A stretch of 45,360 nt of DNA, taken from the NCBI GenBank assembly GCA_015066005.1, contig SVPF01000020.1:1-45360 (forward strand), read 5' to 3'. The position numbers and the translations under genes were made by a program. Below are positions 37,586-45,360 of this stretch, in pieces (the first letter of the stretch is position 1; the number at the start of each line of letters is the position of its first letter). Under the pieces are notes generated by a model, which was not told the DNA's origin, ran no database searches, and saw nothing but the letters and a program-made list of their open reading frames with translations. Source of the DNA: Oscillospiraceae bacterium (GTDB taxonomy: Bacteria; Bacillota; Clostridia; Oscillospirales; Acutalibacteraceae).

Positions 37586-37710
37586 GCTATGTGAGGTTTG
37601 CAGAAGGTATTCGACTGTGAACTGATAGCACTTTGGAGAATTCTGTTAAATCAGATGCCGAAGGGGCAAGGCGGTTTTTAACCGTTAATCTCTCAGGCAA
37701 AAGGACAAAG
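37586..37710 (+). promoter_or_regulatory. Glycine riboswitch (single aptamer with upstream helix)
   Basis: The aptamer core at 37631-37710 shows the family segments TTTGGAGAATTCTG, GCCGAAGGGGCAAGGCGG and CTCTCAGGCAAAAGGACAAAG, closed by CTTTG/CAAAG. Upstream, 37586-37629 forms a GCTAT..ATAGC helix enclosing a GTTTGCAG/CTGTGAAC stem, like the partial (ghost) aptamer reported in some single-aptamer glycine riboswitches. The leader controls the glycine/alanine symporter gene and probably acts through the hairpin at 37739-37770. Confidence 0.9.
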
Positions 37711-37738
37711 GTTGTATTTTTTCTTTCTTGTACTTTTG

Positions 37739-42633: not shown

Positions 42634-42803
42634 TGGCGTTGTATCCGTAAGGATACAACGCCAGTTTTATTCGCCAATGGCGAGTTCTATTGCTGCGCAG
42701 TTATATTCGGCTAAAAGCCGAGTGTTATTGCCTTCGGCAGTTTATAGGCAAATAAAATATCACTGAAACCGCAAGGTTTCAATAACACTATTGCAAAGCA
42801 ATA
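42634..42803. repeat. Hairpin array A (linker GTNTTAT / ATAACAC)
   Basis: A run of short, mutually different palindromes: TGGCGTTGTATCC..GGATACAACGCCA (42634-42663), TCGCCAATGGCGA (42671), CTGCGCAG (42693), TCGGCTAAAAGCCGA (42707), TGCCTTCGGCA (42729), TGAAACCGCAAGGTTTCA (42764) and TATTGCAAAGCAATA (42789). Most are joined by a 6-7-nt linker, GTTTTAT, GTTCTAT, GTGTTAT or GTTTAT, that appears inverted as ATAACAC between the last two. The first hairpin also serves as terminator for the upstream gene. The rest of the gene-free stretch to 42963 holds two ordinary hairpins. Confidence 0.8.
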
Positions 42804-42913
42804 ATATCACTAATTATTGTTATCTTTGAGATAGGTTATTTTTAAAAGTATGTAACCCACTATGACACTTTCACATTCAATGTGCAAAGTGTCATTCGTT
42901 TTGTGTATATAAA

Positions 42914-43851: not shown

Positions 43852-43891
43852 AATAAAGAAGCCACAACCTAAAGGTTATAGCTTCTTTATT
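43852..43891 (-). terminator. Terminator of the GNAT gene
   Basis: A stem AATAAAGAAGC/GCTTCTTTATT with an inner AACCT/AGGTT helix; on the minus strand a TTTATTTTTATA tract follows. Confidence 0.75.
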
Positions 43892-43947
43892 GGAAAGGGT
43901 GTACAAATTCAATGCCCTTTGAGTTTTTGATTTATGGGTTCGAACCG

Positions 43948-44442
43948 CTACAGCTTTAAAGATTTTGTTAATATTTTTTGATTGTTCTCTGTGGATATTT
44001 CTCCTGTATCAGAATAATCGTTTGCCAACCAAAAAGGTATTCCTGTAACCGCATCTGCTGTTAACCAAATGTTTTGTACATCTTTTTCTTTGAAGAAACT
44101 TTCACACTTGCCAATAAGTTCTTTGCCAATACCTTTTCGTCTATGAGATTTCTTTACGAAAAGCTCCATTATATATCCCCAGTTAGCTCGAACAACACCT
44201 TTATCTCCTATCTTATCAATCTTAGCATAACAAAAAGCAATAGGTTCATCTTCTAAGAATACAATTTTTAAGAAACGGTTTTCATCAAGTTTATCAATCA
44301 TGCTTTTTGTTATTTTAGGTATAAGCTCTTTTGGGGTTGTAATATTTTGGTGCAAATCAGTCTCCGATATATATTCAACCATTAGGTTACATAGTATTTC
44401 AAAGTGTATTAAATCATCATTTTTAAGTGTAATATATTCCAT
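43948..44442 (-). CDS. GNAT-family N-acetyltransferase
   Basis: 164 residues. The acetyl-CoA-binding motif A is LFVKKSHRRKGIGKELIGKC (about 92-111, R/Q-x-x-G-x-G/A). It is followed by a C-terminal LTADAVTGIPFWLANDYSDTGE segment. Substrate unknown. Base composition is lower in GC than in the core genes; it and the four-helix-bundle gene upstream look like a small accessory pair (gap 12 nt). Confidence 0.75.
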   Translation of the reverse strand: MEYITLKNDDLIHFEILCNLMVEYISETDLHQNITTPKELIPKITKSMIDKLDENRFLKIVFLEDEPIAFCYAKIDKIGDKGVVRANWGYIMELFVKKSHRRKGIGKELIGKCESFFKEKDVQNIWLTADAVTGIPFWLANDYSDTGEISTENNQKILTKSLKL

Positions 44443-44454
44443 TAAATTCCTACT

Positions 44455-44799
44455 TTATATTTTTCCTTTCAAAGTCTTACAGCTTGAAACTAATAATCGC
44501 CTTATGCGACCACAAAGGTTTCTATTCTTTTTAAATATCTCTTCATCAATATTGTTTGTATTAAATAACAGTTGTAACCAACCTTCAGTTTCACTACATT
44601 CTTTTAATGCAATCTCAAATTTTGAAAGCATATCTGCCTTACTTTGCCCGTAATTAGCCTCACGAATATTGGCATAAATACTGCTCGAACTTTTCCGAAT
44701 TTGAAAGATTGTATTAGACGGTGCCTTTATATTTTTACATAGCAATTCAATATCTGTTGCTAATTGTTCTGAATAAACAAGCAAATAATTCTTAGGCAT
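44455..44799 (-). CDS. Four-helix-bundle protein (TIGR02436/S23-like)
   Basis: 114 residues from the Met at 44799, with AGGAAGTGAG upstream; an earlier in-frame Met at 44859 overlaps the promoter and is rejected. It shows the S23-type pattern IRKSSSSIYANIREANYGQS and SKFEIALKECSETEGWLQLL. The family was first found as an rRNA intervening-sequence protein, and stand-alone members occur near mobile and accessory genes. Function unknown. It is likely co-transcribed with the GNAT gene. Confidence 0.78.
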   Translation of the reverse strand: MPKNYLLVYSEQLATDIELLCKNIKAPSNTIFQIRKSSSSIYANIREANYGQSKADMLSKFEIALKECSETEGWLQLLFNTNNIDEEIFKKNRNLCGRIRRLLVSSCKTLKGKI

Positions 44800-44847
44800 A
44801 ATCTCACTTCCTATGTGGGAATTATAGCATAAATTCACAAACAAATC

Positions 44848-45033
44848 AATGCGAAGCATTGTATATCATCAATTCCGCAAGGAATTGCATATCATCAAGA
44901 CGAAGTCTTGTATATCATCATTGCGAAAGATTTTTTATACACACCTAAAGGTGTGATGAGATACAAGGGCGGTTTTGCCGCCCTTAATGATATACAGCCT
45001 AACGGCTGATGATATACCATTGCTTTCGCAATG
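44848..45033. repeat. Hairpin array B (linker TATATCATC / GATGATATA)
   Basis: Short palindromes AATGCGAAGCATT (44848), AATTCCGCAAGGAATT (44871), AAGACGAAGTCTT (44897), ACACCTAAAGGTGT (44941), GGGCGGTTTTGCCGCCC (44967), AGCCTAACGGCT (44996) and CATTGCTTTCGCAATG (45018) are separated by a constant linker. The linker reads (G)TATATCATC in the first half and GATGATATAC in the second half, so the whole array is inverted about its middle (near 44950). A degenerate unit lies at 44920-44940. No protein is encoded. Confidence 0.85.
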
Positions 45034-45040
45034 GATAAAA

Positions 45041-45073
45041 AAATTCGACTTGTCGAAACAAGTCGAATTTTTT
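45041..45073 (-). terminator. Terminator of tRNA-Arg
   Basis: A stem AAATTCGACTTGT/ACAAGTCGAATTT with a CGAA loop and T residues on both sides, immediately 3' of the tRNA on the minus strand. Confidence 0.85.
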
Positions 45074-45149
45074 GGCACGCTGAAAGGGATTCGAACCCCC
45101 GACCCTCTGCTTAGAAGGCAGATGCTCTATCCAACTGAGCTATCAGCGC
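45073..45149 (-). tRNA. tRNA-Arg (anticodon TCT)
   Basis: 77 nt including an encoded CCA. On the minus strand: acceptor GCGCTGA/TCAGCGT, D-arm GCTCAGTTGGATAGAGC, anticodon stem-loop TCTGC-CTTCTAA-GCAGA (anticodon TCT, decoding AGA) and T-loop TTCGAAT. Discriminator base G. Confidence 0.97.
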
Positions 45150-45206: not shown

Positions 45207-45235
45207 GTAAAATATTTGAATGACATTATAAAAAT

Positions 45236-45360
45236 AAATTGGGGTTTATCGGGCTAACGCCCAAAAGAAAAAAGAATAAAGAAAAAATAATAAATAATAA
45301 AAAATGTGTGCCTACGGCACAATATATAAATCCGTCGGCAAAGCCGACACCGATTTTATT
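45236..45360 (+). repeat. Interspersed micro-hairpin element, copy 6 (runs off right edge)
   Basis: AAATTGGGGTTTATCGGGCT at the start, then the hairpins GGGCTAACGCCC, GTGCCTACGGCAC and GTCGGCAAAGCCGAC. Nearly identical, in opposite orientation, to copy 1 at the left window edge. No gene in it. Confidence 0.85.

Follow-up and report, generated by a model that had tools for sequence, protein, structure and literature searches.

Elements that integrate at tRNA genes, as well as elements of the intervening sequence (IVS) type that encode IVP proteins, are already known (PMC4990558, PMC11270868 and PMC10053308). These sources describe IVP genes within insertions in 23S rRNA and heptamer repeats in the IVS of Coxiella (PMC4990558), and note that the IVP family resembles Avd of diversity-generating retroelements (PMC10053308). 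The islands, tycheposons and satellites that integrate at tRNA genes are inserted at tRNA 3' ends and carry variable cargo. The cassettes of integrons, which bear attC sites recombined by an IntI-type integrase, are small units with variable cargo that occur in tandem copies and have ends that vary in sequence with a conserved folding, and REP/BIME elements consist of intergenic palindromes in alternating orientation, the REP palindromes being constant in sequence and associated with a Y1 transposase (RAYT) in the genome. The IVS of 23S rRNA is cut out of its precursor RNA by RNase III.

The locus described here resembles each of these systems in some respects and departs from each in others. 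The window, that is, the whole stretch of 45,360 nucleotides that was analysed, is a complete contig (C15) of the genome of an Oscillospiraceae bacterium (G000; 1.97 Mb, 53 contigs). As in the 23S rRNA IVS with S23p/IVP genes, there is a PF05635 protein, with short repeats ahead of the gene, in an insertion beside a structured RNA gene; unlike the IVS, the window element is not located inside an rRNA gene but follows a tRNA-Arg, at the tRNA 3' end. It differs further in that it has a promoter of its own and a terminator, that its downstream genes are exchangeable and that its hairpins form a directional array. The small variable-cargo units, the tandem copies and the ends that vary in sequence but conserve their folding are shared with integron cassettes, from which the present elements differ in the tRNA CCA target, the own promoter and the multi-hairpin array, and no integron integrase was identified. 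Insertion at a tRNA 3' end, with a precise junction and an empty site in relatives, and variable cargo are features of tRNA-integrating elements, but the two cases that could be sized are 0.6 and 1.2 kb long and lack an integrase gene, and insertion occurs after CCA, without replacement of the tRNA 3' half as in islands. Like REP/BIME, the array contains intergenic palindromes and alternates in orientation; unlike them, its palindromes are variable, its linkers are constant, and it is part of a defined insertion. None of the papers listed by the literature searches shows a system that combines tRNA-CCA cassettes, directional mid-inverting hairpin arrays and IVP genes.

The array (44847-45034), as read from the sequence, consists of seven perfect hairpins and one half hairpin, with nine-base linkers between them that on the plus strand start as TATATCATC and turn to GATGATATA mid-array. 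The first-half linkers on this strand are TATATCATC at 44862 and 44911 and CATATCATC at 44888, and the inverted linkers of the second half are GATGAGATA, AATGATATA and GATGATATA. All units belong to the element strand (minus); their stems and loops are given here in the plus-strand reading. P1 (44847..44861, CAATGC-GAA-GCATTG) continues at its 3' foot into the -35 hexamer of the promoter, P2 (44871..44886, AATTCC-GCAA-GGAATT) has a sequence that mostly recurs in the P2 slot across copies, and P3 (44897..44909, AAGAC-GAA-GTCTT) is flanked on the minus strand by the linkers GATGATATAC and GATGATATGC. The half hairpin, or mid unit (44919..44929, CATTGCGAAAG on the plus and CTTTCGCAATG on the minus strand), is complementary to the 5' arm and loop of D1. 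Then come D4 (44940..44955, CACACC-TAAA-GGTGTG), D3 (44965..44985, AAGGGCGG-TTTTG-CCGCCCTT), after which the minus strand has the linker TATCTCATC, D2 (44995..45008, CAGCC-TAAC-GGCTG), followed likewise by TATATCATT, and D1 (45017..45034, CCATTGC-TTTC-GCAATGG, minus-strand CCATTGCGAAAGCAATGG), the 5' arm and loop of which can also pair with the half hairpin at 44919-44929.

The hairpin array is beyond chance because it folds far better than shuffled sequences and because its linker is enriched relative to the same pattern read backwards. The folding z-score of the stretch 44840-45075, which takes in the terminator as well as the array, is -9.92 on the plus strand and -11.45 on the minus strand, with none of 200 shuffles as good, and the exact linker TATATCATC occurs 59 times in this genome vs 4 times for the backwards-read pattern, these occurrences being mostly single and in unrelated sequence. 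At the gathering score, Rfam yields no match on 43891-45072 and only 5S rRNA, tRNA and a glycine riboswitch in the whole window; the riboswitch aptamer (37623-37718) lies ahead of a sodium:alanine symporter family gene. The first-pass annotation was right to count about seven hairpins, from which it did not separate the half hairpin, and to see a constant linker that inverts mid-array; it knew of no described family with this layout, and Rfam has no match on the array. It took the array for a free-standing design bounded at 44848..45033; the array is, instead, the left-end module of a gene cassette at a tRNA CCA end, to which the terminator (45038-45072), the promoter (44821-44849) and the sequence down to 43891 belong as well.

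Along the minus strand, tRNA-Arg CCA is followed in turn by the terminator, the array, the promoter, the IVP gene, the GNAT gene, the right end and the native terminator. The target is the gene for tRNA-Arg(TCT) (45073..45149), and the element starts immediately after the encoded CCA with a bidirectional terminator-like hairpin (45038..45072; A-tract, 16-bp stem, T-tract), a stem for which the terminator scan of the region made no call. A sigma-70-like promoter, TTGATT-17-TATAAT with a TG extension (44821..44849), is directed away from the array, its TTGATT being the end of the P1 hairpin, 17 bases ahead of TATAAT; the promoter scan finds 3 such sites in the region vs 5.5 expected by chance, and the weight of the promoter call therefore lies in its recurrence in copies. 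The first gene (44455..44799) encodes a four-helix bundle protein of the 23S_rRNA_IVP family (PF05635, 67.3 bits vs a cut-off of 33.8; TIGR02436, 73 bits) with a single sequence relative in the PDB, 2rld, at E <= 0.01, and the second, the cargo gene (43948..44442), matches the profile of GNAT-family acetyltransferases (PF00583). The right end (GGTTCGAACC...GGGCATTGAATTTGTACACCCTTTCCA, 43891..43946) terminates in CCA, as does the tRNA, and is followed by the native tRNA terminator (43852..43890), displaced by the insertion; in a relative, G067, this terminator comes directly after the tRNA CCA.

The orthologous site in G067 and in G071 contains no element: tRNA-Arg ends in ...CAGCGTGCCA|ATAAAGAAG... 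and is followed by the same native terminator as that found at 43890-43852 in the window. Because this terminator abuts CCA in the empty sites and lies beyond the element in the window, 43891-45072 is a 1,182-bp element inserted precisely after CCA. Match coordinates alone suggest that G070 likewise has an empty site, and in G016, G013 and G021 a different sequence follows this tRNA-Arg, with no array within the 150 nt examined. The direction of the change, gain in G000 or loss in the relatives, is one that we infer. Two dispersed repeats are also present in the window, one at 45234-45360, with many matches in G067 and G042, and another at 42662-42811, with many matches in G070. At the same tRNA-Arg site, G042 (L336, G042:C62, about 2420-2440) has a different insert, the terminus of which is a 16-nt copy of the tRNA 3' end located ahead of the same native terminator; this tRNA-Arg site is therefore an insertion hot spot that is not limited to a single kind of element.

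The first-pass annotation proposed a search of the host genome and its relatives, and the array turns out to be anything but a single locus. Within the genome itself, a DNA search detects 9 places at E <= 1.7e-12, the query included, several of them full length. Among 40 genomes, this one included, the strict two-linker pattern is found in 9, from 2 of 16 genera, and a scan of named genomes gives at least 119 stretches. The 80 of these for which titles are listed come from metagenome-assembled genomes named Clostridia, Oscillospiraceae, Ruminococcaceae, Bacillota or similar, with ruminant or deer gut as the habitat where one is given. Most copies keep the order D1-D4, half hairpin, P3-P1, with different stem sequences and some with one unit more or less, so that many loci combine the same linker with different stems, the outcome that the annotation had named as supporting.

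Six of the 9 places in this genome lie directly after a tRNA CCA, namely, that of Arg(tct), Tyr, Arg(cct), Leu(taa), Thr(ggt) and Arg(ccg), and each of these six copies begins at the encoded CCA with an A-tract/stem/T-tract hairpin, followed by D1. In the named set, a sense tRNA gene ends just ahead of the terminator in 53 of 93 distinct arrays (122 matches minus 28 that are too close to a locus edge and 1 duplicate), with 23 anticodon types; in a wider, overlapping set, the end of a tRNA gene is at most 75 nt away in 62 of 108 arrays (117 minus 9 with short flanks). The other 46 of these 108 arrays have no tRNA detected by ARAGORN; many have tRNA-like 3' ends or other right ends, and some have neither. 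Sorted by eye, many of the non-tRNA arrays follow tRNA-like 3' pieces or other CA-ending sequences that look like right ends of preceding cassettes. End-triplet counts are used qualitatively, given that the counter shifts by one base with the A-tract.

Precise insertion is seen at two tRNA loci, the second being tRNA-Arg(CCT) on contig C2, where a 585-bp element with a single ORF of 90 amino acids is absent from G067. At one tRNA-Leu locus, the identity of three relatives to G000 is 82-86% as far as CCA, beyond which all four genomes diverge: G000 and G067 bear this array with different genes, G042 has another inverted-repeat array with a similar promoter-leader, and G016 has something else. 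The junctions have in common CA followed by an A-rich stretch. The repeat-plus-palindrome layout and the many copies could evoke a new CRISPR-like or REP/BIME array, and the first-pass annotation compared the array with CRISPR. This comparison is not useful, as the intervals are hairpins rather than spacers and none of the six proteins scanned (37712 to the window end) is a Cas protein; the palindromes of REP are constant, the opposite of this array, and each of the two copies that could be sized belongs to a precise insertion at a tRNA end, 0.6 kb long in one case and 1.2 kb in the other. The anatomy and the empty sites speak against a CRISPR or a plain REP, and a novel array of either general kind is exceedingly improbable.

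Five stretches from IMG/VR match the array pattern. Contigs L217 and L219 contain the same real array near the contig end, with a tRNA-like 3' end ahead of it in L217, perhaps a provirus neighbouring a cassette. A viral origin was considered and rejected. L218 has two linkers within an open reading frame, a chance-like match, and the second search string has no match in L215 and L216.

Over 117 arrays, in which related arrays are counted more than once, D1 and the half hairpin share a mean of 9.5 contiguous pairs vs 5.2 when partners are permuted, with 0 of 1000 permutations as high, and in 74 of the 117 all 11 bases of the half hairpin pair with the 5' arm and loop of D1. The pairing is kept across the sequence classes CATTGCGAAAG, CAAGCCGACAG, CAAGCCGCAGG, CAAGTCGCAGA and CATTACGGAGT and is the best-supported long-range pairing. 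The proposal of the first-pass annotation that the linkers of the two halves could pair to produce one long branched structure is not supported as stated, although linker-linker pairing is present in the minimum free energy folds. For other linker families, the long-range inverted repeat exceeds all 30 shuffles in only 6 of 17 cases, and in L270 the longest such repeat is composed of linkers, so the D1/half-hairpin design is firmly shown for the TATATCATC family only.

Within the slots, stems vary and yet stay paired, in line with the suggestion of the first-pass annotation that perfect stems of different sequence are preserved, clearly in the P slots and more weakly in D2. Foot-anchored stems of at least 5 pairs are found in 111 of 116 P3 slots vs 49 with permuted partners and in 89 of 97 P2 slots vs 60 permuted, related arrays again being counted more than once; the D3 slot has 56 of 92, and the D2 slot 43 of 107 vs 33 permuted (maximum 38), a modest excess only, in a measure that misses short stems in the D2 and D3 slots. 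Many different stems occupy each slot, and the palindrome is not constant. The loops are polar: G..A loops are present in 105 of 111 D1 hairpins and in 63 of 135 D2-D3 hairpins (T..C in 3, about half being of neither type), and T..C loops in 157 of 202 P hairpins, none of which has G..A, in counts of all hairpins that include related arrays repeatedly. With distinct hairpins counted once, the D2-D3 loops are G..A in 28 of 78 vs 3 of the opposite type, and the P loops are T..C in 41 of 68 vs 0. Loop polarity flips together with linker orientation; because it is opposite in D and P units, the units are directional and the array is composed of two opposite-facing sets.

In the second cassette of L040 (about 2518-2665; L040/L094), D2-D4 are lost and the 5' arm of D1 is fused to the half hairpin, as expected of a slip between two complementary pieces. 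This loss, along with the diversity of stems in each slot, is what would be seen if the palindromes were neutral or selfish, kept perfect by template-switch correction of one arm from the other in replication, in an array that spreads as a functionless repeat. Arm correction alone, however, does not account for the link between D1 and a half hairpin some 90 nt distant, loop bases included, nor does it set loop polarity by linker orientation, and similar designs recur with unrelated linkers; we regard a neutral origin as rather improbable.

Downstream of the arrays, 55 of 111 ends have TATAAT no more than 110 nt from the last linker, a few of these ends being D ends caught by the pattern. The genes that follow vary from copy to copy: of 153 candidate ORFs, 86 proteins were scanned, which cover 72 of the 85 ORFs in first position and 14 of the 68 in second position; they fall into 72 Pfam families, and the commonest among the 25 of these families listed (HTH) has 5 proteins. 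A number of these 86 ORFs are probably located outside the element. An autonomous element, with an integrase inside the cassette, is unsupported in both sized elements, as the window element contains only the IVP and GNAT genes and the 585-bp element only one ORF; beyond these two, the check for a cassette-borne integrase covers the 86 of 153 candidate ORFs and the 25 of 72 families listed. The position of the array, with a terminator-like stem adjoining the tRNA and a promoter directly behind, is also that of a transcriptional insulator, in which the terminator and hairpins would merely block read-through from the tRNA into the cassette promoter and any sequence would serve as long as stems form. 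Such a role leaves unexplained the constant linkers, their inversion, the loop polarity and the covariation of D1 with the half hairpin, and as the whole explanation it appears quite improbable.

The IVP gene is connected to arrays of this general kind well beyond the TATATCATC family. By eye, each of the 5 IVP genes of this genome comes after an array of hairpins or repeats; the five linkers all differ, being TATATCATC, ATGAAAT, AATGATG, ATGAATTG and ATATCGA, and no inversion is visible in the AATGATG array. Hairpin arrays with the ATGAAAT linker are located directly after tRNA genes in L255/L270 (tRNA-Gly) and L256 (tRNA-Gln), with the IVP gene in L270. IVP genes are present in 49 of 61 genomes of the genus, and among 29 loci read out of 30 fetched (one with a short flank was dropped), at least 3 perfect hairpins are present in the 280 nt upstream in 15, vs 5 of 54 random windows taken from these loci; the regions upstream of other ORFs, which make a fairer control, number only 6, and none of them has three hairpins. 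The other 14 of 29 genus genes do not pass the hairpin test, and several of these, by eye, have plain short repeats that invert half way. A sense tRNA gene lies at most 480 nt away in 8 of the 29 loci. In the phylum, 57 of 299 genomes have an IVP match, and matching inverted repeats, judged against shuffles that preserve base composition only, flank 18 of 30 IVP genes (12 did not pass) vs 2 of 28 control ORFs of the same loci; in the window, the inverted halves stand together upstream of the IVP gene. An array precedes the gene in 17 of 18 loci of a biased collection, most of which were fetched by array; the fair, Pfam-based sets are the 5 copies of this genome, the 29 of 30 genus loci and the 30 phylum loci. 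Conversely, most arrays have no IVP gene behind them, and broken IVP copies occur as well, so that IVP is not needed in cis. One of the genes of this genome (L066/L271, G000:C17) resembles a fusion of two IVP types and has internal stops. A figure legend in PMC10910872 that names the 23S rRNA IVP also mentions CRISPR association scores, and our guess is that repeats of this sort lie behind them.

Two of the IVP loci of this genome, L269 and L272, have arrays that, by eye, extend nearly to the start codon, with no intervening promoter, and may be transcribed; in L272 (G000:C11), the IVP gene is flanked on either side by arrays of TCGATATG repeats. The array could play its role as RNA, being transcribed by read-through or in antisense, with the hairpins bound by the IVP protein, as might be the case for Avd of diversity-generating retroelements and for the related IVP proteins encoded in 23S rRNA intervening sequences. 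GNNA loops suit RNA, and L272, where the repeats are on both gene flanks, has by eye a TATAAT-like promoter ahead of the array; the repeats of many loci of the phylum set, again by eye, reach near the start codon. That the IVP family is encoded within rRNA insertions (PMC4990558) and resembles Avd (PMC10053308) would also fit. Against this stand the promoter that comes after the array in the window and in many copies (the 55 of 111 array ends above), the terminator-like stem on the tRNA side, and the split of the G..A loops between the strands, such that one transcript carries them in half of the array only. An RNA-level role is, in our estimate, a possibility to be taken seriously but an unlikely one.

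No recombinase is firmly tied to the cassettes, and only one case is found beside arrays. On contig C39 of this genome, two cassettes are arranged in tandem, and directly before the pair is a large serine recombinase (L266 2-1270, G000:C39; Recombinase PF07508 plus a zinc ribbon), cut by the contig end, with a right-end-like sequence between the recombinase ORF and the first terminator. This single case is a lead to the mobilising enzyme. For large serine recombinases, two-base identity at the crossover suffices, which would suit the shared CA of the junctions. None of the six Phage_integrase matches in the genome has an array in the flanking sequence that was examined; one of these genes (C40) is located just after tRNA-Lys, without this array.

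Taken together, the usual module order is tRNA CCA / terminator - D1..D4 - half hairpin - P3..P1 - promoter - gene(s) - right end (CA-terminal), with exchangeable downstream genes, directional hairpin units and covariation of D1 with the half hairpin. That the element is a mobile cassette we hold with high confidence. The best explanation overall, which we consider probable, casts the array as the left-end module of a small mobile gene cassette whose insertion point lies precisely behind the tRNA CCA. The part assigned to the array itself, recognition as folded DNA, is put forward tentatively. The units would be recognised as folded single-stranded hairpins with GNA or GNNA loops, the D units being presented on one strand and the P units on the opposite strand, and the candidate reader would be the IVP protein and/or a recombinase supplied in trans. 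By analogy with the folded attC of integron cassettes, the hairpin units may serve as the attachment or assembly site of the cassette, while the terminator and hairpins may also shield the cassette promoter from the tRNA gene. Two alternative folds would be available to D1, one closed by its own 3' arm and one in which the half hairpin is the partner. Strand exchange would take place at the short string common to the junctions, CA plus A-rich sequence, a string that would be available at a tRNA gene that encodes its CCA and has an A-tract.

It is conceivable, albeit on the doubtful side, that these cassettes represent a distinct class of mobile elements, in which Avd-like proteins of the IVP family, together with arrays of directional hairpins or short repeats that are specific to the element and invert in the middle, place cassettes at the ends of structured-RNA genes, the targets being tRNA CCA ends here and rRNA helices in the classical IVS. 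If so, the widespread, unexplained four-helix IVP family would acquire a role in mobility and would be tied to a code of folded-strand recognition that is free in sequence and fixed in form, a link to the open question of what the IVP/S23p proteins do. The empty and filled sites, available at base-pair precision, make the mechanism directly testable. On the cassette reading, the odd intergenic hairpin arrays of gut Clostridia belong to a system of gene shuffling whose address in the genome is a common one, the tRNA 3' end, and which leaves the tRNA unharmed.
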